From: a virus
DNA length: 30,862 nt
Reading direction: 5' to 3' (one strand)
Virus record (IMG/VR): IMGVR_UViG_3300009129_001429
Span: 1-30,862 of that record
Shown: positions 3,194-30,862 of the stretch, in pieces
Layout of the letters: each line of letters opens with the position of its first letter
Position numbering within the stretch: position 1 is the first letter of the stretch
Program-made: the position numbers and the translations under genes
The notes under the pieces: generated by a model
What the model saw: the letters and a program-made list of their open reading frames with translations, nothing else
What the model was told of the DNA's origin: nothing
Databases searched by the model: none

Positions 3194-4136
3194 TATTATT
3201 AATCCGATGATTAAGCAATTTATGCCTTTTGCACAGGAAAAAATGGGTTTTCACAAGCCCCCTAAATTGTTTTTGCGTGGATCTCCTAAGAACGCTGCTA
3301 ACCCACTGGGGAAAACGGCATTCTATGATCCTGCCGCACAAGCTATTACCATATATATTACAGATCGTCACCCTAAAGACGTTATGAGGTCACTATCACA
3401 CGAATTAGTACACCATACACAAAACTGTCGGGGTGACTTTGACAATGTCGGAGAAATGGGTGAAGGATATGCCCAAAACGACGAATATCTGCGCGAAATG
3501 GAGCGCGAAGCATACGAAAAAGGAAATATGTGCTTTCGAGACTGGGAAGACAGCATCAAAAGTACTATTTATTTTGAACATCTACAAAAAGGAGCTAAGA
3601 AAACGATGTCTACTAAAGAATGGAGAAATGGAGAATTAACCACGATTCTCTCAGAAGCTTTTGGTTTTAAGTTTAATCTTGACCATCTTACTGAGGAACG
3701 AACTGGTTCAGGAATCGATCACGGTGGTGACGATGATGAAGAGGCTGAGGAAGAGACCGAAGGCACAGCCGATAGCAAACGCGAAGAAAAAGGTCTTCGT
3801 GATGAAGGACAAGTTTCAAGCGGTCGCAATGGGCCAAATGACAGGCGCCCAGATCCACGGAAGCGTCCGATGGAAGAGGAAGAAGAGCCTTGGGGAATGG
3901 ATACGGTTAAAGATCCGAAGCCCCACAAGCGCCAGGATACCCTTGCACTCCCCGCTCGTAAAAAATGTGAGGATGGTTCGAAACCTGATCGACGAACGGG
4001 CAACTGCCCTGATGAGCGTGTACAGGTCGATTATCGAGCGTCCCCCTACGGACTTGAAGAAAAAGCTGAAATTACTGAGGTTCAAATCCGCGAAGCTGCC
4101 AAACGTGTTTTGGCTCGGCTCAAAGGAGGAAAATAA
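3186..4136 (+). CDS. Zincin-like metallopeptidase with low-complexity charged tail
   Basis: A 316-aa protein. The first 125 residues form the presumed peptidase domain, with the zinc-binding helix SLSHELVHHTQN (His72, Glu73, His76) and a later EGYAQNDEYLREMEREAY segment that could supply the third ligand. Residues about 175-275 are a polar, charged spacer: an acidic stretch (GDDDEEAEEETEG), then Lys/Arg/Asp/Pro-rich sequence with repeated Glu runs. The protein ends in a basic helix, EVQIREAAKRVLARLKGGK. The spacer is probably disordered. The protein resembles uncharacterised phage zincins; a target is not known. It overlaps the VOC gene by 8 nt and is followed at once by the Thr-rich gene. 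Confidence 0.7.
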   Translation: MIDIINPMIKQFMPFAQEKMGFHKPPKLFLRGSPKNAANPLGKTAFYDPAAQAITIYITDRHPKDVMRSLSHELVHHTQNCRGDFDNVGEMGEGYAQNDEYLREMEREAYEKGNMCFRDWEDSIKSTIYFEHLQKGAKKTMSTKEWRNGELTTILSEAFGFKFNLDHLTEERTGSGIDHGGDDDEEAEEETEGTADSKREEKGLRDEGQVSSGRNGPNDRRPDPRKRPMEEEEEPWGMDTVKDPKPHKRQDTLALPARKKCEDGSKPDRRTGNCPDERVQVDYRASPYGLEEKAEITEVQIREAAKRVLARLKGGK

Positions 4137-4430
4137 ATGGGAAAATCATGGAAAAGACGCTGGAACGCCGCCCGGTTGGCCTCGTATAACACTACTACGA
4201 CTGACACGGTTACAACTACGGCACCAGAAGTAGAGACAATCACAGTAGAAACAACGACTCCCATAGTGGAAGCGACAGCGGCAGAGGAAAAAACAACTTC
4301 CCCTCAAACCACTACAAAGAAAAAGACAACTACTTCGACTCGTACTGCCCGAAAAAAGGTAACCAATACAACAAAACGCCAAACACGCAAGAAAACCACT
4401 ACTACCGAAGCCACAACTCACACTACTTAA
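4137..4430 (+). CDS. Thr-rich basic low-complexity protein
   Basis: The ATG directly follows the previous stop. After MGKSWKRRWNAARLASYN the 97-aa protein becomes almost purely Thr with Lys, Arg, Glu, Ala and Val. An acidic Thr-rich block (residues about 20-60) is followed by a basic block (TKKKTTTSTRTARKKVTN... RQTRKKTTTTEATTHTT). It has no hydrophobic core and must be disordered. The basic half looks like a histone-H1-like or protamine-like nucleic-acid-binding tail; the Thr runs could be phosphorylated or glycosylated. Function unknown. The reading frame is supported by tight packing on both sides. Confidence 0.6.
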   Translation: MGKSWKRRWNAARLASYNTTTTDTVTTTAPEVETITVETTTPIVEATAAEEKTTSPQTTTKKKTTTSTRTARKKVTNTTKRQTRKKTTTTEATTHTT

Positions 4431-4444
4431 AGGAATAAGCAAAA

Positions 4445-4702
4445 ATGTCGTTAAATAAAGTCTGGAATGATTTCTTACTGAATGAAAATCTTCAAGATAA
4501 AAATATTTTTACTTATTTGCAAGGTTTAGAAGAAATAATCTCCAATATTAAGCCAAAATCGATGACAGAAGAGCGTCGTTTGTCTTTGGCGAGGCAGCAT
4601 CTGAAAGAAGCTCGCAGATCTGCACGCAGAATGCAAAACGAACTCCAAGTTCTAGAAGAAAGGCTTAATGTATTGGAAGAAAGCCTAAACGAGGGCTCGT
4701 AA
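4445..4702 (+). CDS. Coiled-coil protein, 85 aa
   Basis: AAAGGA lies upstream of the ATG. The N-terminus MSLNKVWNDFLLNENLQDKN resembles the W-x-x-F-L-x-E start peptides of the 835 and 7442 genes and could be a head-targeting sequence. The rest is helical, with a C-terminal coiled coil (HLKEARRSARRMQNELQVLEERLNVLEESLNEG). The stop overlaps the start of the large 641-aa gene (TAATG). A scaffold or internal-head role is conceivable by analogy with T4 core proteins, but nothing proves it. Confidence 0.6.
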   Translation: MSLNKVWNDFLLNENLQDKNIFTYLQGLEEIISNIKPKSMTEERRLSLARQHLKEARRSARRMQNELQVLEERLNVLEESLNEGS

Positions 4703-6627
4703 TGGGTGGTGCGGCGGGCCATATGGCTCATCCCTTCGATTTGGGATGGGTAAACTCGGGTTCTGACCTCTTAGATTTCTTTGAGAAGGCAAAAACCTAT
4801 GTTGAGAAGAAGGGCGCTGGCTCCGTCAAGATAGATGGCGTCAATGTATCGTTCAAAGTGGTCGGAGACGACGAAAACAAGCAATTTGCGGTTGATCGCG
4901 GCTCCTTAAAGCCAATAGACATCGATGGAATTACGATGGACCGCGTTGATGACCGTTTTCCAGAAGGCCACGGCATGCGGCCGGCGATCCGGACCCTTTT
5001 GACCATTTTAAATGAAGCTTTGCCCGATATTCAACAAGAATTAGAAGAATTAGGCATGTGGGACGACCCATCGCGCTTTTTAAACACCGAATATGTCGCC
5101 GGAACGACAAATGTGACTCAATATGATGAAAATTTCCTTGCAATTCACGGATTAAGCCAATTTTATCAAAAAACCGCTAAATCTGGACCCAGCAAAGGAA
5201 ATATACGCCCTGGAATGGCGCGCCCGGAAGGAGTAAAGGCTCCAAGCGTCGAAGTGGCCTATGATCCTCAAACAATGGACAAATTAGTCACGAAACTCAA
5301 TTCTGTAGCCGAAAACTACGGTTTTAAGGTATATGGCTCCGTTCCAACCGAAAAAATCGACGAAATCGACTTTTCATCGACTTTATCGCAACCTTTTACA
5401 GTAAACGTGTCTCCTGATCGCCAAATCACTAAATCTTTGGAAGAATGGTTGCGCGAAGTCCAAAATCCACGTTATAAAGTGGTCAAATTAAAAGATGGGA
5501 CCAAAATACACTCTCTACATAAACAACTTTATCTTAATATCTTAAATGGAGAGACCCCAGTGGTAGATTTACTTGATCAGGCAGATGCGCAAGATGCTAT
5601 TTATGGTGCAGTGCTGATGCACGCCACTCGAATGCTTGGAAATGATGTTATGAAGGCCCTGACAAGCCCGATGGGCGATGTAATGAACCATGAAGGTATT
5701 GTTATGCGAGATGAGAAACTTTTTGGACCAAATCCTGTCAAAATCACCGGAGACTTTATTGTTGGTAACCTCGGAGGCGGATTTGGACAGGTCACTGAAG
5801 AAGAAGAAGAAATAGAGGTCATCGACAACGAAGATGCAGATCCTGTGGGAGAATTTGCTGGTGGTGAAACGGTTGCTATTGTCCCCGGCGCATTTAAGCC
5901 GCCACACCGCGGCCATCTTGCAATGGTAGAACAATATGCCGATGAAGCAGACCGTGTAATAGTGTTAATTTCAGCCCCTGTGTTAGCAGGTAGAAAACTA
6001 CCTAATGGGCGCGAAATTACTGCTGCAGATTCTCAAAAGATTTGGGAATTGTATGTTGATCACTTACCAAACGTTGAAGTAGAGATTTCCTCGCATGCTT
6101 CTCCCATAAATGCAGCTTATGAATATGTTGGAGAGGAAGGACCACTCAATGCGGGCGATAGTGTTATTCTCGGCTGCAGCAAAAAGGATTGTGATTGGAA
6201 ACGATGGATGGGCGCTGAAAAATATATTAAAGATGGGGTAAGCCTGCTACCGCCCGAAGGTGTTTCCCCGACATATCGGGATAATGGTGAGCCATTTAGT
6301 GCTACCGAAATGAGAGACTTGCTTGGGCGCGCACAAGAAGACTCAGATGCAATTGAAGAATTAGAAGAATTTACCGGCGAAGATAATGTTTTTGATGTTT
6401 TGTCTATTTTGGGCCTAAATGTTGGTTTAAGTGAGATGTCTTCAATGGGTGGCGGGGCCGTCCAAGGTGCAGCCGTAGGAGCCAAGGGAGGACCTTGGCG
6501 CCACACTGATATTGAAGCCGAGAACGAAAAAGAAAAGAAACGTAGTAGACTTAAAAAAGAAAATATAGATTTATCTATGGTTGATGAAGTAATGAGACTA
6601 TTTATGGAAAGAGGGATTATCCAATGA
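4702..6627 (+). CDS. Ligase-like nucleotidyltransferase domain fused to HxGH cytidylyltransferase-like domain
   Basis: A 641-aa two-domain protein. Residues about 1-370 carry the signatures of the covalent nucleotidyltransferase fold (DNA/RNA ligases, capping enzymes): motif I KIDG with Lys43, an FAVDRGS stretch resembling motif Ia, LNTEYVAG resembling motif III, EGIVMR resembling motif IV (Glu331), and VKITG resembling motif V (Lys347). An acidic linker follows. Residues about 390-560 are an HxGH nucleotidyltransferase domain (VAIVPGAFKPPHRGHLAMVEQ, His402/His405; later a SATEMRDLL helix) like NMN or phosphopantetheine adenylyltransferases. A basic, helical tail ends the protein. The fusion suggests adenylate transfer, for example in nucleic-acid repair or NAD metabolism, but the substrate is unknown. 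The MGGAAGHMAHPFD start may match a phage family of unknown function. Confidence 0.75.
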   Translation: MGGAAGHMAHPFDLGWVNSGSDLLDFFEKAKTYVEKKGAGSVKIDGVNVSFKVVGDDENKQFAVDRGSLKPIDIDGITMDRVDDRFPEGHGMRPAIRTLLTILNEALPDIQQELEELGMWDDPSRFLNTEYVAGTTNVTQYDENFLAIHGLSQFYQKTAKSGPSKGNIRPGMARPEGVKAPSVEVAYDPQTMDKLVTKLNSVAENYGFKVYGSVPTEKIDEIDFSSTLSQPFTVNVSPDRQITKSLEEWLREVQNPRYKVVKLKDGTKIHSLHKQLYLNILNGETPVVDLLDQADAQDAIYGAVLMHATRMLGNDVMKALTSPMGDVMNHEGIVMRDEKLFGPNPVKITGDFIVGNLGGGFGQVTEEEEEIEVIDNEDADPVGEFAGGETVAIVPGAFKPPHRGHLAMVEQYADEADRVIVLISAPVLAGRKLPNGREITAADSQKIWELYVDHLPNVEVEISSHASPINAAYEYVGEEGPLNAGDSVILGCSKKDCDWKRWMGAEKYIKDGVSLLPPEGVSPTYRDNGEPFSATEMRDLLGRAQEDSDAIEELEEFTGEDNVFDVLSILGLNVGLSEMSSMGGGAVQGAAVGAKGGPWRHTDIEAENEKEKKRSRLKKENIDLSMVDEVMRLFMERGIIQ

Positions 6628-7445
6628 AAGCTGAGCAAGAGCAAATCTTAAGAGAGAATATAAGACAGTTAATTGAAGTTGTCAAGCAAAAAAGAAGTAC
6701 AGTCCAAGAAACACTGTTATTAGAAGAAGAACGCCTCCGCGGGATCGTTAGAGACTTAATTGATGTTGAACTCCAATCGCTCCGCGAGGATACTACCCCT
6801 GACAACGACCCGGTGCCCAATAAGTCTACTGGCATTAACGTTCTCGAAGATCTTTTGAAGAAAATTATTCCTGTCCTAGAGACTGATTATAAATTACTTA
6901 CTACCGATGCCGAACAGCGCCAATCATTCCGCGCGCATGTTATTAATGCTGTAGTTGATGCCTTAACACCTGCTGAAGTTAATAATGAGGCTGGTGAGGA
7001 GGTTGCTGCAGCGGATGCACTAGAAGAAGAAGTAGATATAGCTATTGGCGATGAAGATAAGTTTATCGATATTCGAACTGATGCAGAAAAAAGTGCTGAT
7101 GATGAAGAAGTCGAAGAGGACCCCCGCGATGGTTTTGGCGTCGCCGGCGAAGATGAAACTGGACGCAATGTAGCTTATAATGCCTTTAAAAAGATTCAAA
7201 CTTCAATTATTGATTCTTATGAATTATTATCTAATCCTGAAGACCAAGAATTGTTTTATGATTATTTGATCGCCAATCTTAAATTGTATTTTGATAAATT
7301 CGAAGGCGAATTGGCGCCAGACGTAGAAGAGCCCACAAATCAAGCCTATGACGATGCTAAGAGCGAAGAAGGCGATATGGGCGCGCCAGATGACACTGAG
7401 ATGGATTTCGGTGGTGATGAAGAAGAGATAGAATTAGAATTATGA
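6624..7445 (+). CDS. Acidic helical protein, 273 aa
   Basis: The ATG overlaps the previous stop (ATGA). Residues about 1-60 form a charged coiled coil (QILRENIRQLIEVVKQKRSTVQETLLLEEERL). The middle and C-terminal parts are extremely acidic (EEVAAADALEEEVDIAIGDEDKF, DDEEVEEDPRDG, DFGGDEEEIELEL). A small helical domain (FKKIQTSIIDSYELLSNPEDQELFYDYLIANLKLYFDKFEGEL) lies between them. No family is recognised. The acidic, helical composition is common in phage scaffold or internal-core proteins, and its position beside proteins with capsid-targeting-like starts fits that idea, but this is inference only. Confidence 0.6.
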   Translation: MKAEQEQILRENIRQLIEVVKQKRSTVQETLLLEEERLRGIVRDLIDVELQSLREDTTPDNDPVPNKSTGINVLEDLLKKIIPVLETDYKLLTTDAEQRQSFRAHVINAVVDALTPAEVNNEAGEEVAAADALEEEVDIAIGDEDKFIDIRTDAEKSADDEEVEEDPRDGFGVAGEDETGRNVAYNAFKKIQTSIIDSYELLSNPEDQELFYDYLIANLKLYFDKFEGELAPDVEEPTNQAYDDAKSEEGDMGAPDDTEMDFGGDEEEIELEL

Positions 7446-8206
7446 AAATTTTAATGGAGAATTGGCGCCAATTTATAGAACATGGCGCGTCGACACCTGA
7501 GAATGGAAAAATATATCTTTTCGAAGATGAAAAGATCACAGAAGCATCTTTTAGCATAAGATTAAATCTATTAACAGAATCCACCACAGAGATAGAAGGC
7601 TTTTTGCGAGAATGGGAGACGTCTGCCGATTATGTGTTAAGCAAGAATGTTCTTAATGAGGGCGTAATGGATTTAGTTTCTCAGGCGGCTGCAGTGTTGA
7701 AAACACTCGCAGAGAAATCTTGGGATACGGTCACAAGTGTCACTTCAAAAGTTTTAAATTTTATTGAGAAATTTAAAGAAAAACACCCCAAAATATATAG
7801 CGCCCTCAAATGGGCCTGTATAGCAATAATATGTATAGCGGCACTTTATCTAATAGCCAAAGCCACAGGAATGACAGCTGTTGTCCAAGCTATGGAATCA
7901 CTTGCTACATTCCAATGGCCCGATGTAGCAATTTCTGAATTGGTAAGAGATCTAACCAACCAACAGACAGTAGATGCTCTTCGAAACCTACAAGACGCAT
8001 TATTAAATCGAGCAGGAGACATAGGAGTAGATCTGGTGCAAAGTGATCATCAAATCCTTCAGGATCTAGGAGATAAAATCTTAGATTCTATTCCATCGGA
8101 GCAGTCGGCTGAAGCAGTATCGGATTTCTGGGGTCAGGCGATGGAACGGTTACAGCAAGGCGCCCAGGCCGGCACGGGACAAATTGAGACCTTCACTCCA
8201 AATTAG
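7442..8206 (+). CDS. Membrane-anchored protein with capsid-targeting-like start
   Basis: A 254-aa protein whose ATG overlaps the previous stop (TATGA). It starts MKILMENWRQFIEHG, nearly the same peptide as the HAD protein at 835. Residues about 70-115 are amphipathic helices (VSQAAAVLKTLAEKSWDTVTS... KVLNFIEKFKEKH). One clear hydrophobic segment follows (ALKWACIAIICIAALYLIAKA), then a soluble helical C-terminal half. No enzyme motif is seen. The shared N-terminal peptide with a possible cleavage site and one membrane-spanning helix would fit a virion-internal protein delivered with the DNA and inserted in the membrane, but this is speculative. Confidence 0.6.
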   Translation: MKILMENWRQFIEHGASTPENGKIYLFEDEKITEASFSIRLNLLTESTTEIEGFLREWETSADYVLSKNVLNEGVMDLVSQAAAVLKTLAEKSWDTVTSVTSKVLNFIEKFKEKHPKIYSALKWACIAIICIAALYLIAKATGMTAVVQAMESLATFQWPDVAISELVRDLTNQQTVDALRNLQDALLNRAGDIGVDLVQSDHQILQDLGDKILDSIPSEQSAEAVSDFWGQAMERLQQGAQAGTGQIETFTPN

Positions 8207-8586: not shown

Positions 8587-8812
8587 ATATAACGGACACT
8601 ATATCATGGGCGACTTGGTCGGCTCACACAAAACAGAAGCTGCCGCCATGAAAAAAGCAAAGAAAGAAATAAAATTTAAATTTTCTGTGAGAGAAAAGAA
8701 AAAGAACGAGATACTTATTTGGCTTGATGGTGAAAACCACGAACCACTAGGAGTTATCACACACGAATTAAAGGGGACGAAACGGCCTCGACAGGGTAAG
8801 GAGAAAGGATAG
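8570..8812 (+). CDS. Small basic protein overlapping the tmRNA
   Basis: An 80-aa Lys-rich protein: MWKVYKYNGHYIMGDLVGS, then TEAAAMKKAKKEIKFKFSVREKKK, then EILIWLDGENHEPLGVI. It looks like a small alpha/beta protein; the LIWLDGE strand and the Lys-rich helix appear well formed. No known family is recognised. It overlaps the HTH gene by 17 nt. An alternative ATG at 8606 would shorten it. Its last 13 codons (HELKGTKRPRQGKEKG region) lie within the 5' end of the tmRNA, so that part of the protein is dictated by the RNA gene. Processing of the tmRNA 5' end would cut this message before its stop codon. Confidence 0.6.
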   Translation: MWKVYKYNGHYIMGDLVGSHKTEAAAMKKAKKEIKFKFSVREKKKNEILIWLDGENHEPLGVITHELKGTKRPRQGKEKG

Positions 8813-9194
8813 TGCAAGTAGTCAAACGTACCAGCAGACTTTAAATGCAGATACAAAACATAATTGCTAATAATAATAACAATTTCGAATCTGTCCGCTT
8901 AGCGGCTTAATCGGGTGGTTACCTAAAGCCATCAATCCAATTTAGGTATTTATCGCAACAGGATGGTAAGCGATATCTTATAGCCATCTATCTTTTTGTT
9001 AGTTTCTGATAGCAAACTGACGCATCGATTGGAAAGGGTGAGGGTTTAGCTTGTCAGTCGATTAATCACCCCGCTTTTGTTGATTTTCACATAGCGGATG
9101 CCGGCCGTCAGACCGGTAAAAATCAACTAAACTTGTGAATGACTTGAATTTTAATATGCTTTGGACGCGGGTTCGACTCCCGCCGTCTCCACCA
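8773..9194 (+). ncRNA. ssrA: tmRNA (one-piece, 422 nt)
   Basis: The 5' end GGGGACG pairs with CGTCTCC before the A and the encoded CCA at 9192-9194, giving a 7-bp acceptor stem with one G-U pair. Next to it lie the conserved 5' segment with CTCGACAGGG and the 3' T-arm GCGGG-TTCGACT-CCCGC, the classic tmRNA ends. A tag reading frame is at 8866-8910, preceded by TAATT, which resembles the conserved UAGUC before the E. coli resume codon. The 280 nt after the tag contain several complementary blocks, as expected for the pseudoknot domain. Length matches bacterial one-piece tmRNA (about 350-420 nt). It would rescue stalled ribosomes and tag proteins for proteolysis. The 394-base stretch between the flanking genes is fully explained by it. 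Confidence 0.95.
8866..8910 (+). other. tmRNA tag reading frame (ANNNNNFESVRLAA)
   Basis: Fourteen codons from GCT to the TAA at 8908-8910 encode ANNNNNFESVRLAA. The tag starts with Ala, has polar Asn residues and ends in LAA, the ClpXP-type degron of bacterial tags. It lacks the usual YALAA core, and its five Asn in a row and internal Arg are unusual. The resume codon is GCU rather than the more common GCA. Confidence 0.85.
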
Positions 9195-9206: not shown

Positions 9207-9905
9207 ATGCGTATATATCAAAATAAAACTAAGACAGCCATATTGCTTATTAATTTAAAGGCGGCTTCTACATCTGCTGCGACACATTGCCGAAAAGGCG
9301 AAATTTCACAGGTTACGAATTCATCAACAGAATATCGTAAAGTTGCAAGAGATCCACTATTATATAAACTAATGATAGTGCGAGAGCCCTACCAACGAAT
9401 TGAAAGTTTTTATAAAAGTCGTTTTTATGTGCCTTACTCTCAAGATGAATGGCAAAAGCTCTTAAACACAATCACAGACTTAGAAATATATCAATGCCCT
9501 CTAACAGGCAAGTTTAAAGAGAGAAAATCCGGAAATAAATTACCGTTTTGGGTACGTATGGTAAATCATATATGTGAATATTTTGATAAAGAAGAATATT
9601 TTGCTGAAAAAATAGATTTTGAACAGTTTGTTATAAATGGGGTAGGAAAGGGATATCACGGACTTGGGCATTTATATGAACAAACCCGACTCTTGGAGCG
9701 CTCCCAAATTAACGCCGCGGCGGTAAATGAAATTATAAAACTTGAAAATCCGGATTTTACAAACTTAAACTCTTATTTTAATATAAATTTTGCTCATGAG
9801 AATAAAAGCTCGATAGACACGACCTTAATTTGGACGTCCGAAATGAGGCAAATAGCTTATGAAAAATACAAAAAAGATTTCGAAGAATTTAAATATACAA
9901 GATAA
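9207..9905 (+). CDS. Sulfotransferase family protein
   Basis: A 232-aa protein with the two PAPS-binding regions of sulfotransferases: a strand then KAASTSAA near the N-terminus (Lys18, Ser21, Thr22; the 5'-phosphosulfate loop) and LMIVREPYQRIESFYKSRF (3'-phosphate-binding Arg/Ser region). Length fits a minimal Sulfotransfer_2-type domain. It would move sulfate from PAPS to a sugar hydroxyl. A stop codon precedes the ATG in frame, so the start is fixed, yet AAGGA abuts the ATG with almost no spacer, so initiation may be weak. The start is 12 nt after the tmRNA 3' end, so both are likely on one transcript. The 3' end is overlapped by a 55-aa ORF in another frame. Confidence 0.75.
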   Translation: MRIYQNKTKTAILLINLKAASTSAATHCRKGEISQVTNSSTEYRKVARDPLLYKLMIVREPYQRIESFYKSRFYVPYSQDEWQKLLNTITDLEIYQCPLTGKFKERKSGNKLPFWVRMVNHICEYFDKEEYFAEKIDFEQFVINGVGKGYHGLGHLYEQTRLLERSQINAAAVNEIIKLENPDFTNLNSYFNINFAHENKSSIDTTLIWTSEMRQIAYEKYKKDFEEFKYTR

Positions 9906-21840: not shown

Positions 21841-23112
21841 ATGAAAAAAACAAAAATCTTAACTATATCGGATCACCCTTTAAGTCCATCCGGAGTTGGA
21901 ACACAAACCAAATATGTGATTGAGGCATTATTGAAGACAGGCCGATATCAAATTATCTCTTTGGGAGGAGCTATGAAACATGACGATTATACTCCCAAAG
22001 CTGTAAGCCCCTATAACGATGATTGGAAAATATTTCCTGTAGATGGTTATGGGAACCAAGAAGCCATTAGGTCTATTCTGCAAAAAGAAAAACCTGATAT
22101 GGTATGGTTTATGACCGATCCTAGATTTTATGGCTGGCTTTGGGAAATTGAAAATGAAGTTAGAGCCGTGTGCCCTATGGTATATTACCATGTTTGGGAT
22201 AACTTTCCAGCGCCCAAGTATAACGCTCAATTCTACGATTCAACCGACGAAATCATATGTATATCTAAGGTTACAGCGGCAATAGTAAAAGAAGTATCTC
22301 CGAATGTATCATCTTGCTATATTCCTCACGCAGTTAATTCAAACATATTTTATAAGTTTAAAACTGACGAAAAGCTCAAAGTTGTGGCAGAACTCAGAAC
22401 ACGCGTTTTGGGAACCGACAATTCTCCCAAGAAATTATTCTTTTGGAACAATCGCAATGCACGCCGGAAGCAATCAGGTACTATTATTTGGTGGTTTAAA
22501 GAGTTTTTAGACGATGTGGGGCACGATAAAGCTGTCTTGTTAATGCATACAGACGCGCGCGATCCTCACGGACAAGACTTGCCTCATTTGATTGAAACGC
22601 TAGGGCTAACCGAAGGACAAGTATTGATTTCTACTCAGAAAGTTCCCCCCGAAGATTTGGCCAATATGTATAATGCATCAGACTTTACCATAAATATTTC
22701 GGATGCTGAAGGTTTTGGACTGGCTACTTTAGAATCCCTGTCTTGCGGTACACCCATCATCGTTAATATGACCGGCGGGCTCCAAGAACAAGTGACTGAT
22801 GGTGAAAACTGGTTTGGCTTTGGTATTCAGCCAGCTTCAAAAGCGATTATTGGTTCTCTGCAAGTACCTTATATTTATGAAGACCGCCTTGCTCAAAAAG
22901 ATTTTCACAACGCACTTAAAAAGGCAATATCAATGACTCCCAAGGCTTATAAGAAAGTTTCGATACAAGGTCGAGAACACGTTAGAAAAAATTATAATTT
23001 TGATAATTTTGAAAAGCAATGGGTCAGTAAGATTGATGAAATTGTAGAGAAATATGGTTCGTGGGAAAATAGACAAGGTTATAAACGCTGGCATTTATTG
23101 GAGGTGGCATAA
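21841..23112 (+). CDS. Glycosyltransferase family 4
   Basis: A 423-aa GT-B protein with AAGGA before the ATG. The start MKKTKILTISDHPLSPSGVGTQTKYVIEALLKTG is a GT4 N-terminal strand and glycine loop. The C-terminal half has VLISTQKVPPEDLANMYNASDFTINISDAEGFGLATLESLSCGTPIIVNMTGG, including the E-x7-E motif that binds the nucleotide sugar (EGFGLATLE). It transfers an activated sugar to a growing glycan in the cytoplasm. It is the first gene of an unbroken operon, and its stop overlaps the next start (TAATG). Confidence 0.9.
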   Translation: MKKTKILTISDHPLSPSGVGTQTKYVIEALLKTGRYQIISLGGAMKHDDYTPKAVSPYNDDWKIFPVDGYGNQEAIRSILQKEKPDMVWFMTDPRFYGWLWEIENEVRAVCPMVYYHVWDNFPAPKYNAQFYDSTDEIICISKVTAAIVKEVSPNVSSCYIPHAVNSNIFYKFKTDEKLKVVAELRTRVLGTDNSPKKLFFWNNRNARRKQSGTIIWWFKEFLDDVGHDKAVLLMHTDARDPHGQDLPHLIETLGLTEGQVLISTQKVPPEDLANMYNASDFTINISDAEGFGLATLESLSCGTPIIVNMTGGLQEQVTDGENWFGFGIQPASKAIIGSLQVPYIYEDRLAQKDFHNALKKAISMTPKAYKKVSIQGREHVRKNYNFDNFEKQWVSKIDEIVEKYGSWENRQGYKRWHLLEVA

Positions 23113-25055
23113 TGCGTAAGAAAATTATTTTAAAGGGTCCTCTTTTGACTCGTTCTGGTTATGGTGAACAAGCACGTTTCGCTCTTCGGGCTCTCCGGAG
23201 CCGGCAGGATCTATTTGATATCTATATCCAGCCGTTACAATGGGGCCAAACTTCTTGGCTAAGCGATTTAGATGAGGAACGTGTTTGGATCGATCAAGCT
23301 ATTGAAAAAACAATTCATCATGTTCATGCCGGCGGCAAGTTTGATATGTCCCTTCAAGTGACCATTCCAAATGAATGGGAACCAATGGCGCCAATAAATA
23401 TTGGGTACACAGCCGGAATGGAAACAACAGCCGTAGATCCTGCATGGCTCATAAAAGCAGAAGAAGTGATTGATAGAATAATTGTTGTTTCAAGCCACTC
23501 TAAAAATACCTACGCTTATACCGCTTATGATGCCACAGATAACCACACCAATCAGAGCGTCACTCTCAAGCTAACAAAACCAATTGCAGCAGTCAACTAT
23601 CCGACTAAGACATATGAGGATTTGCCCGAAGTTGAATTAGAGCTTAAGCCCGATTTTAACTTTTTAGTTGTAGCTCAAATGGGCCCTAGGAAAAATTTAA
23701 TGAATACAGTTAAATGGTTTGTTGAAGAATTTCAAGATGAAGAAGTGGGTTTGGTGCTTAAGGCAAATATGATGAAAAATTGTCATATGGATAAGCTTAG
23801 AACTCATCAGGATTTAAAGGCCTTTGTTGCACAGCTTAATAAGAGTGATATGAAATGTAAGATTTATCTTCTCCATGGAGATATGACCGATAAAGAGATG
23901 CACAGCTTGTATAATCACCCTAAGATTTCGGCTTTTGTTACATTCGCTCACGGCGAAGGCTTCGGGCTTCCCATTTTTGAAGCAGCATACTCGGGTGTTC
24001 CAGTAGTTGCTACAGGTTGGTCCGGACAATTAGATTTTCTCGTTTCGTCCGACAAGAAAGAAAATTTTTATAATGTTTCATATGATTTAGGACCCATTCC
24101 AAAAGAAGCTGTTTGGGAAAATGTGGTTCGCGAAGGAACAATGTGGGCTTATCCCCGAGAACAGTCTGCCAAAGAAAAGATGCGCGCCTGCTACGAAGAT
24201 AATAAAAAGAAACGCCAAGCACGGTGGAGCAAGAATGCCAAACGCTTGCATGAAGAATTTACGCCCGAGAAACAATACGCAGCGTTTGTAGAGGGAATGT
24301 TAGGCGAAGCGCCCAAGAAGATTGATTTAGAGGACATCCCTAAGATCTCTATTATTACTTCGGTATATGACGGAGACGAATATATTCGACCATTTATGGA
24401 AGATATTACTCGACAAACGATCTTTAAAGAAAAATGCGAATTAATTATGATTAATGCGAATTCTCCTGGAAATGAAGAAGAGACTATTCTAGAGTATCAA
24501 GAAAAATATCCCGATAATATTATATACAAAAAGCTTGATGAGGATCCCGGGATTTATAGTACATGGAACATAGGCATTGAATTGGCCACCGGTGATTATA
24601 TCACAAACGCAAATTTGGATGATCGTAAAGCTGCTCACTCGTTAGAGCGTCACGCGACGGAACTGACCACTAATGAAGATGTAGATTTAGTGTACGCAGA
24701 TATGCTTATTACAGATCAACCTAACGAATTGTATGAGAATAATAATTCTAATGGTCGCCGATATAACTTTCCCCCCTTCTCTCTGGAAAATCTCAAGATG
24801 GTTAATATGCCCCACGCTAGTCCAATGTGGAGAAAAGAGCTACATGACAAGTATGGGAAATTTGACGATAAGTATAAATCCGCCGGAGATTGGGAAATGT
24901 GGCTCCGAGCAGCATCTCAAGGAAGCCGGTTTAAGAAGATAGAAAATGAAGTTTTGGGATTATACTATTTCAACCCCACAGGAATCTCCACAAACCCCGA
25001 CAACTTTGGTTGGAAACAGAAGGAAGAAACAGAGGTTTACGAACGCTATAAATAA
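23112..25055 (+). CDS. GT4-GT2 bifunctional glycosyltransferase
   Basis: A 647-aa two-domain fusion. Residues 1 to about 400 are GT-B/GT4-like (KGPLLTRSGYGEQARFALRAL at the start; FVTFAHGEGFGLPIFEAAYSGVPVVATGWSG with the E-x7-E motif). Residues about 412-640 are a GT-A/GT2 domain (KISIITSVYDGDEYIRPFMEDITRQTI, ELIMINANSPGNEEE, DPGIYSTWNIGIELATGDYITNANLDDRK, with the DxD-like NLDD), followed by the SPMWRKELHDKYGKFDD acceptor-site region. One polypeptide could add two successive sugars. The N-terminal half resembles the preceding GT4 in overall plan, so the pair may have arisen by duplication. Confidence 0.88.
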   Translation: MRKKIILKGPLLTRSGYGEQARFALRALRSRQDLFDIYIQPLQWGQTSWLSDLDEERVWIDQAIEKTIHHVHAGGKFDMSLQVTIPNEWEPMAPINIGYTAGMETTAVDPAWLIKAEEVIDRIIVVSSHSKNTYAYTAYDATDNHTNQSVTLKLTKPIAAVNYPTKTYEDLPEVELELKPDFNFLVVAQMGPRKNLMNTVKWFVEEFQDEEVGLVLKANMMKNCHMDKLRTHQDLKAFVAQLNKSDMKCKIYLLHGDMTDKEMHSLYNHPKISAFVTFAHGEGFGLPIFEAAYSGVPVVATGWSGQLDFLVSSDKKENFYNVSYDLGPIPKEAVWENVVREGTMWAYPREQSAKEKMRACYEDNKKKRQARWSKNAKRLHEEFTPEKQYAAFVEGMLGEAPKKIDLEDIPKISIITSVYDGDEYIRPFMEDITRQTIFKEKCELIMINANSPGNEEETILEYQEKYPDNIIYKKLDEDPGIYSTWNIGIELATGDYITNANLDDRKAAHSLERHATELTTNEDVDLVYADMLITDQPNELYENNNSNGRRYNFPPFSLENLKMVNMPHASPMWRKELHDKYGKFDDKYKSAGDWEMWLRAASQGSRFKKIENEVLGLYYFNPTGISTNPDNFGWKQKEETEVYERYK

Positions 25056-25058
25056 GAT

Positions 25059-25724
25059 ATGAATTCAAAAAAATTAATAACTTTTTCTTTATGGGGGCAA
25101 GATCCCAAATATTTAGTAGGAGCCATTAGAAATGCTGAGTTGGCTCAAGAGATATATCCCGATTGGATATGTCGATTTTATTTAGGAGCTAGCGTGCCGC
25201 TTCCTATTAAATTGCAATTAAAAAAATTAGAGAATGTAGAAATCGTAACAATGGATCAATGGGGCGATTGGCGTGGTATGTTTTGGCGTTTTCTCCCTGC
25301 CTCTGAGTCAGGAGTAGAGGCTATGATTTCTCGTGACACAGATTCGAGATTAAACTTCCGTGAAAAAGCGGCCGTTGATGAATGGCTGGAAAGCGATAAG
25401 GGATTTCATATTATGAGAGACCACCCATTTCACAAGTTTCCAGTGCTGGGAGGAATGTGGGGAGTAAAGGCAGGAATTCTTCCCAATATGGCTCACATGA
25501 TTAATCAATTTGCACAAGAAGATAAATATGGCACTGATTATGAGTTTTTTGCTCAAGTTGTTGTCCCTCATATTCAAAACAATGCGCTTGTTCATGATGA
25601 ATTTTTTGGTGGAAAGCCTTTTCCCACCCCAAGAGAAAATTATCAATTTGTCGGTCAAGTCTTCGACGAGAATGAAATAACTGTTGAAGAACACATAGCC
25701 GCGCTTCGAGCGCACTCGAAATGA
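25059..25724 (+). CDS. Glycosyltransferase-like protein with DxD motif
   Basis: A 221-aa protein. MNSKKLITFSLWGQDPKYLVGAIRNAELA opens with a GT-A type strand-helix; AMISRDTDSRLNFREKAAVDEWLES contains the metal-binding DTD, followed by FHIMRDHPFHKFPVLGGMWGVKAG. This SRDTDSR / HIMRDHP / GGMWG series marks a glycosyltransferase-like family that recurs in capsule and phage gene clusters; its sugar is unknown. It starts 3 nt after the previous stop, and its stop overlaps the next start (ATGA). Confidence 0.75.
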   Translation: MNSKKLITFSLWGQDPKYLVGAIRNAELAQEIYPDWICRFYLGASVPLPIKLQLKKLENVEIVTMDQWGDWRGMFWRFLPASESGVEAMISRDTDSRLNFREKAAVDEWLESDKGFHIMRDHPFHKFPVLGGMWGVKAGILPNMAHMINQFAQEDKYGTDYEFFAQVVVPHIQNNALVHDEFFGGKPFPTPRENYQFVGQVFDENEITVEEHIAALRAHSK

Positions 25725-26788
25725 AGTTTTTTAATTTAGACTTGCACATATCAGTTATCGCCGATATAAAGCGCATTTTCACAGATTTGGGACATTCAGT
25801 AGACAATTGGAGTATCTCGGGCCACGCTCATTTGATGGGATCTCCCACAGATCAAGTAGATATAGTCAACCAGCATACTTGGCGCCACCTTGATTCTGAA
25901 ATGATAGAAGAATTTTATAAGCGCTATGAGTCAGACTTAAAACATTATGATGGATTTATTGTTACGCATACTCCGTGTTTCGCGATGCTGTATGAAAAAT
26001 TTAATAAACCGATCATCACAGTCGCAAGTACACGATACGAAGATCCCTTTTCGAATGATATGATTAAGTGGACAAAGTTTAATCGTTATCTGCAAGGGCA
26101 AATAGATAAGAATCTAGTCATTCCGGTTGCCAATAATAAATACGACAAAAAATATACGCAATTATTTACACAACGAGAGTGGCAGCATATTCCAAGCCTA
26201 TGTGAATACACAGAAGCTCAATATACAGGCACCACTAATCAATTTTTATATTCCTCTAAATTTAAACCGCAAATTCAAATCGAAAATTTAATAGAAAAAG
26301 AAAGAGCATTTCCCCAAGGATACACTTGGCAGCAATTAGCTGATTATAAAGGCATTGTTCATATACCTTATAATATCTCTACTATGTCAATATTTGAGCA
26401 ATATATGGCAAATATTCCTTTATTTTTTCCGTCCTGGGAATTATTGTATAAATTACGCGAAAAACATGGTAACCATGGAGTTCTGTCTGAGACATCCTGG
26501 AACCAAATACATCGATTAAGCTCTAATTCGATTCTTTTTCCGGGAATGAAAGATCCTAATAATTTTAACAACACCGCCGATATGATGGAATGGGCCAGAC
26601 TCTCAGATTTTTATGATGAAGATAATATGCCCTATATTCAATATTTTAATTCATTCGAACATTTAGGTGAATTATTAAAAACAGTTGATTTAAAAATCAT
26701 ATCCGAAAATATGAAAGAACACAACAAAAAAAGAAAAGAAAAAGTATATGAATCTTGGAAGGAGATTTTATCAAGGATAGAACAATGA
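25721..26788 (+). CDS. Putative glycosyltransferase (GT-B-like)
   Basis: A 355-aa protein without strong standard motifs. MKFFNLDLHISVIADIKRIFTDLGHSVDNW is a Rossmann-type start. The middle (YDGFIVTHTPCFAMLYEKFNKPIITVASTRY) and C-terminal part (YKGIVHIPYNISTMSIFEQYMANIPLFFPSWE) resemble the acceptor- and donor-side strands of GT-B enzymes, in which an F-E-Q-Y-M-A-N-I-P helix replaces the usual E-x7-E. It is placed as a glycosyltransferase mainly by fold-like appearance and operon context. It overlaps both neighbours by 4 nt (ATGA). Confidence 0.6.
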   Translation: MKFFNLDLHISVIADIKRIFTDLGHSVDNWSISGHAHLMGSPTDQVDIVNQHTWRHLDSEMIEEFYKRYESDLKHYDGFIVTHTPCFAMLYEKFNKPIITVASTRYEDPFSNDMIKWTKFNRYLQGQIDKNLVIPVANNKYDKKYTQLFTQREWQHIPSLCEYTEAQYTGTTNQFLYSSKFKPQIQIENLIEKERAFPQGYTWQQLADYKGIVHIPYNISTMSIFEQYMANIPLFFPSWELLYKLREKHGNHGVLSETSWNQIHRLSSNSILFPGMKDPNNFNNTADMMEWARLSDFYDEDNMPYIQYFNSFEHLGELLKTVDLKIISENMKEHNKKRKEKVYESWKEILSRIEQ

Positions 26789-27663
26789 AATACATCTGTT
26801 ATAATTGGATGCCCCTAATGGCCACACAAGGTTTAGATCTGCCACCGCAGTTTTATACAAATGCCGGTACCTCTCGACTGCACGACTTGCCTCCCCTCAA
26901 TCCTGCGAGTTTACAAACAAATGAAACAATTTTTGTTAAAACAGATTATGTTGTAAATGGATATTTCCAAAATCATTATTTACGGCAAATCAATACAAAA
27001 TTTAATCTTATTACCGGCGTATCTGCTTATCATCTGGGGAGGGATGGAGGAAATGTTTATCAAGCAATTTTGGATCATCCCCACTTAAATAAGTGGATTT
27101 GTTCGAATCCTCCAGATATTGATGATGACCGAATCATTCCGATGCCTATTGGTTTTCAAGAACCAGATCGACAGGGAGGATATCAAGAATTTCTAGAACA
27201 AATTCAAGAATGTCGAACTCCTTTCGAGAAGAAAGAAGACGGTGTTTTTTTGCCTTATCATGATTTGAGCACAAACCCTCAAAGGGCTCAATTATTTCAA
27301 AAGCTCAGCCAGTTGCCCTTTGTACATGTACAAACAGAAAAACAAGATTTAATAGAATATTATGCGAGCTTAGATAAGTATAAATTTGTAATTGGTCTTG
27401 AGGGCCGCGGCCCCGATATTCATAGGAATTATGAGACCCTGCTCGTTGGCTCCATACCAATCGGTGTTAAAAATGTGATAAAACGCGTATTTGATTATCA
27501 TCAGGTTGAGAGCGTCTTTTTAAATAATTGGGATGAATTAAATAATAATTTATTTGACACGTTGCTGCAAGCCGGTTATAATACTACTATAAATGATGAT
27601 TTTTTAATAATAGACAAGCACGTTTCTCATCTTAAAAAAATGCTTACTAAAGGAACACAATAA
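26785..27663 (+). CDS. Exostosin/fucosyltransferase-like glycosyltransferase
   Basis: A 292-aa protein. The start at ATG 26785 overlaps the previous stop (ATGA); an upstream in-frame ATG at 26755 lies inside the neighbour. KWICSNPPDIDDDRIIPMPIGFQEPDR and YYASLDKYKFVIGLEGRGPDIHRNYETLLVGSIPIGVKN match the C-terminal half of GT47 (exostosin) and GT10-like enzymes, where the fEGxGxDxHRxYE segment binds the nucleotide sugar. The donor sugar cannot be told. It is followed directly by the methyltransferase-like gene (TAATG). Confidence 0.65.
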   Translation: MKYICYNWMPLMATQGLDLPPQFYTNAGTSRLHDLPPLNPASLQTNETIFVKTDYVVNGYFQNHYLRQINTKFNLITGVSAYHLGRDGGNVYQAILDHPHLNKWICSNPPDIDDDRIIPMPIGFQEPDRQGGYQEFLEQIQECRTPFEKKEDGVFLPYHDLSTNPQRAQLFQKLSQLPFVHVQTEKQDLIEYYASLDKYKFVIGLEGRGPDIHRNYETLLVGSIPIGVKNVIKRVFDYHQVESVFLNNWDELNNNLFDTLLQAGYNTTINDDFLIIDKHVSHLKKMLTKGTQ

Positions 27664-28320: not shown

Positions 28321-29034
28321 ATGAAAACAGCAATTTGTTTCACGGGCACCTGTAGGAGCTTGGAGCACACACACGAGAACATCAAAAATCTTCTGGTGAA
28401 CACAACAGGGGCAGATGTATTTTTATTGATAGCCGACAATCCGCATGCGCACAAAGTACATGAGTATTTTAATTTGCCTCAAACCAAAAAACTTATAATA
28501 GAAGAAGAGCCTAGCTATGACTTGACAGGATTACAGTTTCGACCCGGCTGGCCTCCCCCTACAACAACCACACAAATATACTATAAAATGATCAAATCGC
28601 GCCAACGATGTGATGAAGTTTTGAAAGCCTATGAAGAAGAAGAGGGAGAGGAATATGAACGAGTCATATTTTCGAGATTAGACGTTAAATATTTTAATGA
28701 CGTAGCACCACTTATAGACAAAACCGATCTAAACAATTTATATGTACCGGATTTTCATAACACTTTCGGAGGCGCTATTGATGGGTATAATGATCGATTT
28801 GCAGTAAGCAATAGAAAAAATATGCACATCTATTTTGATGCTGTAGAAAGTGCTCACCCCTTTGTAGATAGCGGAGGCCGAATCACGGCCGAGACGCTTT
28901 TAAAATGGCACTTAACAAACTCCCAGGTGAACGTTATGCACGTACCAGTGCGTTTCACCCGCGTCCGACCAGACGGTAGTGAAATTGACGAACGCCTTAA
29001 GAATTTCCAACCCGGTGTACATCGAGACTCATGA
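28321..29034 (+). CDS. Glycosyltransferase-like protein of unknown family
   Basis: A 237-aa protein; ATG 28321 is used because the longer reading from 28246 runs through the previous gene. MKTAICFTGTCRSLEHTHENIKNLL is a GT-A-like first strand; YERVIFSRLDVKYFNDVAPL contains an R-x-D-V/L-K-type acidic motif, and FGGAIDGYNDRFAVSNRKNMHIYFDA a conserved-looking G-D-R-F-A segment. FTGTxR-S and SRLDV are shared by an uncharacterised family in algae, giant viruses and phages that is usually classed near glycosyltransferases. Function is inferred mainly from context. It overlaps the next gene by 4 nt. Confidence 0.55.
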   Translation: MKTAICFTGTCRSLEHTHENIKNLLVNTTGADVFLLIADNPHAHKVHEYFNLPQTKKLIIEEEPSYDLTGLQFRPGWPPPTTTTQIYYKMIKSRQRCDEVLKAYEEEEGEEYERVIFSRLDVKYFNDVAPLIDKTDLNNLYVPDFHNTFGGAIDGYNDRFAVSNRKNMHIYFDAVESAHPFVDSGGRITAETLLKWHLTNSQVNVMHVPVRFTRVRPDGSEIDERLKNFQPGVHRDS

Positions 29035-29876
29035 ATAAATATTTAGTACTTGGTTCCTCGGGGCAGATTGGTGCCCCCCTAGTTGAGTTTTTGCGCGCTC
29101 GTGATCACGAGGTATATACTTTAGATATTGTTGAAGATAAAGCAGAGGATCTGCGCTTAGCGCATAACGAGCTTCTTCTCAAATACGCTGCGCAGGCAGA
29201 CTTTGTATTTTTCTTGGCTTTTGATGTAGGAGGCGCAAAGTATTTAAGCAAGTATCAAGATACCTTTAATTTTATACAAAACAATATTCAAATTATGTCA
29301 AACACGTTTGAGACCTTGCGGCATCTTAAAAAACCCTTTATTTTTGCATCAAGTCAAATGTCGGATATGAATCATTCCACATATGGATTATGTAAAGCCA
29401 TCGGTGAACGCTATACTAATGCGCTGGGGGGACTTAACATTAAATTGTGGAATGTTTATGGGTATGAAAAAGATTTAGAAAAGTCACATGTTATAACTGA
29501 CTTTGTTTTAAAAGCTCTGCAAACCGGAACAATAGATATGCTAACAGATGGTCGTGAAGAACGCCAATTGTTGCATGTAGAAGACTGTTGTCGTGCGCTC
29601 TATACACTGAGCACGCAATTTGAAAAAATTGATAAAAGCATAGATTACCATCTAACGAGTTTTGTATGGGACTCTATAATGGATGTGGCTGTCCAAGTAG
29701 CTTCAAATTATGAAGATATAGTTATAGAACCCGCAACGAGCACTGACTTAACTCATGGTAATTGGCGCAAAGAACCACCGGAGCATATTTTGCAATATTG
29801 GTCGCCATCTATCACCCTGCAAGAGGGGATCAAGAGGGTTATTAAGGAAATTGAAAGTGGACTATCAACTAAATAA
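29031..29876 (+). CDS. NAD-dependent epimerase/dehydratase (extended SDR)
   Basis: A 281-aa protein. YLVLGSSGQIGAPLVEFLRARDHEVYTLDI is the Rossmann NAD(P)-binding loop (GxxGxxG variant GSSGQIG), and FIFASSQMSDMNHSTYGLCKAIGER holds the catalytic Ser with Tyr-x3-Lys. LWNVYGYEKD and EERQLLHVEDCCRALYTL are the conserved downstream motifs of nucleotide-sugar epimerases. It would epimerise, dehydrate or reduce a nucleotide sugar for the operon's transferases. ATG overlaps the previous stop (ATGA). Its final 20 nt overlap the start of the sialyltransferase-like gene. Confidence 0.85.
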   Translation: MNKYLVLGSSGQIGAPLVEFLRARDHEVYTLDIVEDKAEDLRLAHNELLLKYAAQADFVFFLAFDVGGAKYLSKYQDTFNFIQNNIQIMSNTFETLRHLKKPFIFASSQMSDMNHSTYGLCKAIGERYTNALGGLNIKLWNVYGYEKDLEKSHVITDFVLKALQTGTIDMLTDGREERQLLHVEDCCRALYTLSTQFEKIDKSIDYHLTSFVWDSIMDVAVQVASNYEDIVIEPATSTDLTHGNWRKEPPEHILQYWSPSITLQEGIKRVIKEIESGLSTK

Positions 29877-30603
29877 AGATTTATTAAGCATCTTAAAAGG
29901 TAAGAGAGTTGCCATAGTAGGACCCTCTCCACATTTAATGGGACATAATATCGGCGAATTGATTGATTCTTATGATATTGTATGCCGCGTTAATGAGGTG
30001 CACCCCACTGGATATGAAAGTGATTACGGGGATAGAACCGATATTGTATTTCACAATTGCGGTGGCGCCTTTATAGATTTCTTTGGCCGACAACTAGTGG
30101 CTAAGTCTATTATATCGAAATATCTCAAATTTGTGATATGCCCTTGCGTAAAAAATAATGGGAGTGATAATAATTGGTCTACATGGCCTGATGACTATGA
30201 GAGTGGGGTTGTTGCTAATTTTAGAAAAATTAATATATTTAATATCCCCTTTCACTGGATAGGGATGAAAAACTATAGACAAGTATATAATCTATACAGT
30301 GTAGAGCCAAACACCGGCCAAGTAGCAATTTTAATGTTACTGAAGCATCAGGTTGAAGAATTGTTTATCACGGGATTCTCTTTTTACCAACAAGGAGATA
30401 TGCCTAGTGACGCGCACCGTCCTGGTCACACCCAACTCGGGCGCGAGAATATTGCAGTTGGCAATTCAAGTCATTCTCAAAACCCTCAAATGCAGACATT
30501 CTCACAGAATATATTAAAGGACTATGGAGAACGTATCGTACTGGACTCTGTTCTGAATGATTTATTACAGTGTGAACATTCTAACGTAGTAGAGTTGGCT
30601 TAA
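29857..30603 (+). CDS. GT29 sialyltransferase-like protein
   Basis: A 248-aa protein. GKRVAIVGPSPHLMGHNIG then ELIDSYDIVCRVNEV, ending in YESDYGDRTDIVFHN, is the sialyl-motif L region of GT29 (VVGN...G...IDS.D.V.R.N......E.DVG.RT). PNTGQVAILMLLKHQVEELFITGFSFY corresponds to motif S (P.TG......L...D.v.l.GF). A GTG at 29857 with AAGGA upstream is chosen; the frame is open further up, but that part is a shadow of the epimerase. GT29 enzymes move sialic acid from CMP-sialate to a sugar. The following gene resembles the enzyme that makes CMP-sialate. GT29 is best known in animals. Confidence 0.75.
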   Translation: MDYQLNKDLLSILKGKRVAIVGPSPHLMGHNIGELIDSYDIVCRVNEVHPTGYESDYGDRTDIVFHNCGGAFIDFFGRQLVAKSIISKYLKFVICPCVKNNGSDNNWSTWPDDYESGVVANFRKINIFNIPFHWIGMKNYRQVYNLYSVEPNTGQVAILMLLKHQVEELFITGFSFYQQGDMPSDAHRPGHTQLGRENIAVGNSSHSQNPQMQTFSQNILKDYGERIVLDSVLNDLLQCEHSNVVELA

Positions 30604-30862
30604 TGAAGATAGTTTCTTTAATTTTAGCCCGCGGCGGCAGCAAGGGAATACCAAGAAAAAACTTAATCCCACTGAATGGAAAGCCTCTCTTATATTACAG
30701 TATTACAAATTCACTAAAAGCAGAGGTAAATGAAACCTGGGTCAGTACAGAAGATAGTGAAATGAAAAAGACATCTTTAAGGTATGGAGCAAAAGTGCTT
30801 GATCGACCACTTGAGATATCTACGGATACCTCAAAATGTGAGGAAGCTTTGTTACATTTTGC
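30603..30862 (+). CDS. neuA: CMP-sialic acid synthetase-like cytidylyltransferase, 5' part
   Basis: Starts at ATG 30603 within the previous stop (TAATG) and runs off the right edge; 86 residues are visible. MKIVSLILARGGSKGIPRKNLIPLNGKPLLYYSI is the signature of NeuA/KdsB-type cytidylyltransferases (LARGGSKGIPxKNL binds CTP phosphates), followed by TWVSTEDSEMKK and GAKVLDRPLEISTDTS, all as in acylneuraminate cytidylyltransferase. It activates sialic acid, or a related nonulosonic acid, with CTP. KdsB (KDO) has a slightly different start, so NeuA is favoured. Downstream genes (for example neuB and neuC) are outside the window. Confidence 0.85.
   Translation, partial: MKIVSLILARGGSKGIPRKNLIPLNGKPLLYYSITNSLKAEVNETWVSTEDSEMKKTSLRYGAKVLDRPLEISTDTSKCEEALLHF

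Follow-up and report, generated by a model that had tools for sequence, protein, structure and literature searches.

A GT29-family glycosyltransferase gene adjoins NeuA- and NeuB-family genes in a virus with T4-like phage genes

We analysed a virus record of 30,862 bases (the window; all window positions refer to its full length) and find that a gene near its end encodes a member of the GT29 (sialyltransferase-like) glycosyltransferase family, a placement confirmed by Pfam, by profile comparison and by fold. The gene is followed by a NeuA-type CMP-ulosonate synthetase gene and, in a longer contig, by NeuB-family synthase genes. We consider it probable that the final three steps of a pathway for a sialic-acid-like sugar are encoded by the phage and that the GT29 protein moves the CMP-activated sugar in the cytoplasm, with a virion protein or glycan a more likely target than a capsule. 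In this proposal, the NeuB-family synthase would condense PEP with a six-carbon sugar, usually an amino sugar bearing an N-acyl group, into a nonulosonate, NeuA would convert the nonulosonate into the CMP sugar, and the GT29 protein, which is soluble, cytoplasmic and free of a membrane anchor, would transfer the sugar to a glycan that the GT4/GT2 enzymes encoded nearby assemble.

GT29 enzymes, best known from animals, are inverting transferases that use a CMP-beta-ulosonate donor and the histidine of motif VS as a base. The gene and its neighbours in the window are as follows, with L004 and L008 denoting two related phage contigs.

21841..27663, + strand: upstream part of the glycan module, with PF00534/PF00535 matches; similar genes lie 5' of GT29 in L004
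21841-23112, + strand: GT4, upstream glycan module
23112-25055, + strand: GT4+GT2 two-domain protein, upstream glycan module
25059-27663, + strand: three uncharacterised proteins, upstream glycan module
28321..29034, + strand: DUF7796-family protein (PF25072 E=3.9e-8), start uncertain; neighbour also in L004 and L008
29031..29876, + strand: NAD-dependent sugar epimerase/dehydratase (PF01370 E=1.2e-22, phrog_540 E=5e-40), its last 20 bases shared with the start of GT29; neighbour also in L004 and L008
29857..30603, + strand: GT29-family (sialyltransferase-like) glycosyltransferase, GTG start, 248 aa, assigned by PF00777, PDB profile and AF2 fold
30603..30862, + strand: NeuA/CMAS-family CMP-ulosonate synthetase, first 86 aa (PF02348 E=7.9e-17), cut by the record end

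The GTG start of the GT29 gene is preceded by AAGGAA, which resembles a ribosome site. The encoded protein matches PF00777 (Glyco_transf_29) with an E value of 1.2e-11 (44.9 bits, cut-off 23) and no other Pfam family at E<=1. When a profile of 32 aligned phage GT29 proteins, each of which matches PF00777 at E<=0.01, was compared with the PDB, ST3Gal1 was found with E=1.8e-19, along with ST6Gal1, ST8Sia3 and ST6GalNAc2, and the GT42 enzyme CstII scored more weakly than these GT29 structures, at about 1e-9 (8e-10). The AF2 model of the window protein (pLDDT 88.6, pTM 0.89) has the GT-A-variant sialyltransferase fold and its best 37 PDB matches are all GT29/GT42 sialyltransferase chains, with TM-scores of only ~0.4-0.6. 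An earlier note on this DNA had called the protein GT29-like and had proposed searches with PF00777 and PF02348 and a structure prediction as checks. Both families match, the model is nearest to the GT29/GT42 sialyltransferases, and none of the three comparisons gave a non-sialyltransferase family that fits the protein better. The gene is not a chance ORF: frame and motifs are preserved in relatives that are 57-63% identical, and its pN/pS, calculated with saturated synonymous sites, is ~0.35, which points to purifying selection.

All 30,862 bases of the window match the 203,204-base contig IMGVR_UViG_3300013114_000447 (G002) at an offset of 20,696, and the GT29 region is also present in a 108-kb contig; the contigs lack repeats at their ends and could be incomplete. 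G002 carries T4-like terminase, portal, major head and tail sheath genes, with a terminase nearest to that of Flavobacterium phage immuto (46%). Judged by these genes the source virus is a large T4-like phage, and an origin from an animal or algal virus was rejected. A megablast match to Enterococcus phages proved to cover no more than the 3' end of the phage-borne tmRNA gene at window positions 8773-9194, which has the tag ANNNNNFESVRLAA.

In G002 the glycan module extends over roughly 22 kb (~42.5-64.1 kb), encodes soluble proteins and is directly followed by tail-type genes. Three of its genes, in G002 coordinates, complete the cassette.

51299-51946 of G002: complete NeuA, 215 aa (PF02348 E=1.4e-24)
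51943-52689 of G002, just past the window end: divergent NeuB-family gene, 248 aa
53367-54191 of G002: main NeuB, 274 aa (PF03102 E=3.5e-63)

The order after GT29 is NeuA, the divergent NeuB-family gene, an SDR gene and the main NeuB, then methyltransferase-like and uncharacterised genes, a nucleotide-sugar dehydrogenase, an epimerase, a WecB-type epimerase and GMD/Fcl-like genes, and the module contains further glycosyltransferases. The inspection of DNA beyond position 30862 for neuB/neuC, which the earlier note had advised, thus yielded neuB-type genes; no neuC equivalog was found there in G002, and a WecB-type non-hydrolysing epimerase (TIGR00236, above cut-off) stands ~7 kb on instead. 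The main NeuB has both metal-site histidine motifs (GYSGHE and ERHLTLDR) in alignment with solved NeuB enzymes. No C-terminal SAF domain was found in its 274 residues, for which PF03102 was the sole Pfam match, and the solved 290-residue NeuB 6ncs aligns with it end to end. The divergent protein keeps the first histidine motif only and seems to be without the second; its pairing with an SDR gene is also conserved in L008. Elsewhere in the window, positions 9207-9905 hold a sulfotransferase-family gene (PF03567 E=9e-7), another possible glycan-modifying enzyme.

The composition of the module bears on the predicted acceptor. No hydrophobic or membrane segment was found among the G002 module proteins, and neither large contig has a WbaP-type (PF02397) initiator or a Wzx-type (PF01943) flippase, so there is no sign of a self-contained pathway for lipid-linked export. 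Because the module is without a lipid-carrier transferase, flippase or membrane protein, a cytoplasmic acceptor is favoured, and we propose with modest confidence that the acceptor is a virion protein or a phage-built glycan in the host cytoplasm rather than a self-standing capsule. A possibility to be taken seriously, if short of an even chance, is that the cassette acts on a host surface glycan (LPS or capsule) and not on the virion, so as to block superinfection or mask the infected cell. The same role has been published as a proposal for LPS-type genes of marine phages (PMC5332604), and the carrier, flippase and polymerase could come from the host, a point that counts against our own proposal as regards the first two. 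The absence of WbaP- and Wzx-type genes and of membrane proteins, and the position of the module just before the tail genes, argue against a host-surface target, but neither is decisive.

GT29-like genes are spread over many phages: a search with a four-sequence alignment returned 79 GT29-like loci in viral contigs. The phage contigs L004 (63% identity) and L008 (57%) have the same GT29-NeuA-NeuB cassette, arranged as a DUF7796-like gene, the epimerase, GT29 and then the NeuA and NeuB genes, with NeuB before NeuA in L008; DegT-type aminotransferases adjoin the cassette in both, and in L004 these are LegC/PseC-like. In a tree of 72 sequences, whose deeper branching order is unsure because of long branches, the window protein falls within a clade of 22 sequences (support 98/84) that here comprises phages only and has NeuA nearby in 22/22 rows, compared with 0/12 rows in another phage GT29 clade. 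Of 60 non-redundant GT29 loci, 36 have a NeuA-like gene in their flanks, compared with 10 of 69 control loci, which were loci around GDP-mannose dehydratase (GMD) without GT29 (Fisher p=1.2e-7, to be read with a NeuA model seeded from GT29 loci, related loci that are not independent and some short contigs). In 19 loci NeuA is within 16 nt of the GT29 gene, and all seven control loci that do contain GT29 also contain NeuA. NeuB alone was not enriched near GT29 (17/60 versus 13/69 controls, p=0.22), and the association is therefore claimed for NeuA only. Among genome contigs, a scan with a tight alignment gave no GT29 loci and a scan with a broader alignment gave 10, mostly from Actinomycetota; PF00777 occurs in 1 of 198 sampled Actinomycetota genomes, that one being the centre genome itself. 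Scanning with the DUF7796 neighbour added no contigs to the known ones.

The GT29 stop codon and the NeuA start codon overlap by a single base (TAATG). The best PDB match of the NeuA fragment in the window is CMP-Neu5Ac synthetase, and against the PDB the NeuA protein is closer to NeuA/CMAS (E about 2e-30) than to KdsB (E=4e-8); its best NCBIfam match is TIGR03584 PseF, below the equivalog cut-off. The PF02348 match and the CMP-Neu5Ac synthetase structures thus agree with the earlier description of this gene as CMP-sialate-synthetase-like. The alternative named there, a KdsB with KDO genes downstream, is not preferred for the window's own cluster, since the synthetase is nearer to NeuA/CMAS and the next gene is a NeuB, not KdsA.

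As a pair, GT29 and NeuA hold up, with the NeuA link and NeuB found in addition, but sialic acid as the sugar added was too specific a claim, because the plant GT29 member RCKT1 is a putative RG-II CMP-Kdo transferase (PMC11288761). RCKT1 resembles the phage protein as a GT29 member with a putative CMP-ulosonate donor and differs from it as a eukaryotic Golgi enzyme whose proposed donor is Kdo. The NeuA association seen across the family would also fit CMP sugars other than sialic acid. The phage GT29 might transfer CMP-activated Kdo or another non-sialic ulosonate, with NeuB and NeuA making a sugar such as Kdn or one like Kdo instead of an amino-nonulosonate. Besides RCKT1, two observations lean this way: a GT29 relative in the contig L009 stands beside a DAHP/KDO8P-type synthase and a sugar-phosphate isomerase (SIS)-like gene, and no aminotransferase resembling the DegT-type genes of L004 and L008 was found in the 203-kb contig. 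We nevertheless judge it unlikely, as the synthases of the window's cluster belong to the NeuB family, with N-acetylneuraminate synthase as the best NCBIfam match (E=2e-60, below the model's equivalog cut-off), as the synthetase lies on the NeuA/CMAS side, and as DegT-type aminotransferases do accompany the same cassette in L004 and L008. The predicted donor is most likely a CMP-activated nonulosonate or a related ulosonate, and to transfer of such a CMP-ulosonate the NeuA neighbour lends only indirect support.

The sialyl motifs of the window protein were located by alignment with ST3Gal1.

29902..30042, + strand: sialylmotif L region, residues 16-62; CMP-donor site by homology
30304..30378, + strand: sialylmotif S region, residues 150-174; aligned with PSTG...(L)YGF of ST3Gal1
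30472..30489, + strand: motif VS, H206-SQNP-Q211, H-x4-Q instead of H-x4-E

Both sialyl-motif regions that the earlier note had seen are present. Motif L is clear, aligns with ST3Gal1 residues 95-144 of chain 2wnb_A, and contains residues G33, I36, D37, D40, R44, G58 and T61, which are invariant across the 32 phage sequences. Motif S, which reads EPNTGQVAILMLL...ITGF, is a reduced form and not the full consensus (G154 is kept in 31/32 and G173 in 32/32 phage sequences). The motif VS histidine, H206 (bases 30472-30474), is conserved in 31/32 phage sequences and aligns with that of ST3Gal1; it is likely the catalytic base, and by homology the enzyme would be inverting with a CMP-beta-ulosonate donor. 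Position 211 is Gln in 22/32 phage sequences, including the window protein, and Glu in 6/32, and the H-x4-E form is kept in bacterial GT29 relatives (Isoptericola). No HYxE-like site corresponding to motif III (HYxE/D) was found in the window protein, L004 or L008; motif III is present in other phage GT29 proteins (L050, L054, L067 and L096).

With motif III missing and the VS Glu replaced by Gln, the predicted catalytic activity is not assured. These two changes would fit a gene that has decayed to an inactive remnant, or a protein that binds sugar but does not catalyse, a reading we regard as very improbable given the retention of the VS His and motif L across the 32 phage proteins, the pN/pS of ~0.35 and the stable neighbourhood with NeuA in every row of the clade.

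The GT29 family, which the earlier note had described as chiefly eukaryotic, is not purely so, as GT29 sialyltransferase-like proteins were reported in 2018 from bacteria, mostly alphaproteobacteria and many of them marine (Petit et al. 2018, PMC5811610). That paper, the text of which does not mention phage or virus, also discusses the nonulosonate pathway, and its proteins share with ours the occurrence of GT29 motifs in prokaryotes. They have motifs L, S, III and VS, whereas in the window's clade motif III cannot be recognised and VS usually carries Gln. The animal enzymes ST3Gal1 (2wml/2wnb), ST6Gal1 (4js1) and ST8Sia3 (5bo6) share with the phage protein the fold, motif L, motif S (reduced in the phage protein) and the VS His, but identity is ~15-17% and the phage protein lacks the membrane anchor and motif III and has H-x4-Q. 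Campylobacter GT42 CstI/CstII are soluble bacterial sialyltransferases of the same structural superfamily; they differ in that the phage proteins match PF00777 alone in Pfam and their profile scores better with GT29 structures. One phage protein already bears the UniProt name 'Glycosyl transferase family 29' (A0A6J5NLG3, uncultured Caudovirales phage, 492 aa) and is likened to ours by that name only. Thus bacterial GT29 proteins and one named phage GT29 are known, and judged from its residues the phage clade differs in motif III and VS.

Among related ulosonate genes of marine viruses, NeuA has been seen together with KdsA in the genome of a marine phage (PMC5332604), and neuB is known from viromes (PMC3877843); these are genes of a shared kind, and in the available parts of both texts no GT29 transferase is reported with them. 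The literature searched contained no direct report of a phage NeuB-NeuA-GT29 unit, phage GT29 or phage sialic-acid synthesis, which is weak evidence of novelty. We put forward, as a speculative idea, that the phage-specific GT29 clade (H-x4-Q, no motif III) and the phage NeuB and NeuA may together attach sialic acid to virion proteins while these are still in the cytoplasm of the bacterium, an arrangement that would be soluble, carrier-free and unlike known bacterial and animal systems. If active, the predicted role would give phages their own sialic-acid-like decoration machinery, which could affect host-surface recognition, phage competition and virion stability. The clade, as a set of small soluble GT29 enzymes, is useful for asking how the fold works without motif III and for tracing GT29 movement between bacteria, phages and eukaryotes.

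Several other phage loci show different arrangements. At L027:5466-8702 (also in L028 and L045), one 1078-aa protein combines GT2, GT11 and GT10 (fucosyltransferases) with GT29, and a NeuA-cupin gene follows it. NeuA-like synthetases with a C-terminal cupin fusion were found next to or near GT29 at L026:8699-9799, L035:8838-9974 and L009:5878-7041. The 484-kb uncultured phage L023 (LR756508.1) has four GT29-like genes within 5 kb (3234-8055), three in direct succession, with a NeuB-like gene alongside, and a 677-aa phage protein at L084:7998-10031 contains a tandem pair of GT29 domains. Finally, AAY80_202 of the cultured Stenotrophomonas phage vB_SmaS-DLP_6 (L022:5875-6753), a "hypothetical protein", matches the phage GT29 profile with E=1.2e-11 and belongs to a clade without NeuA neighbours.
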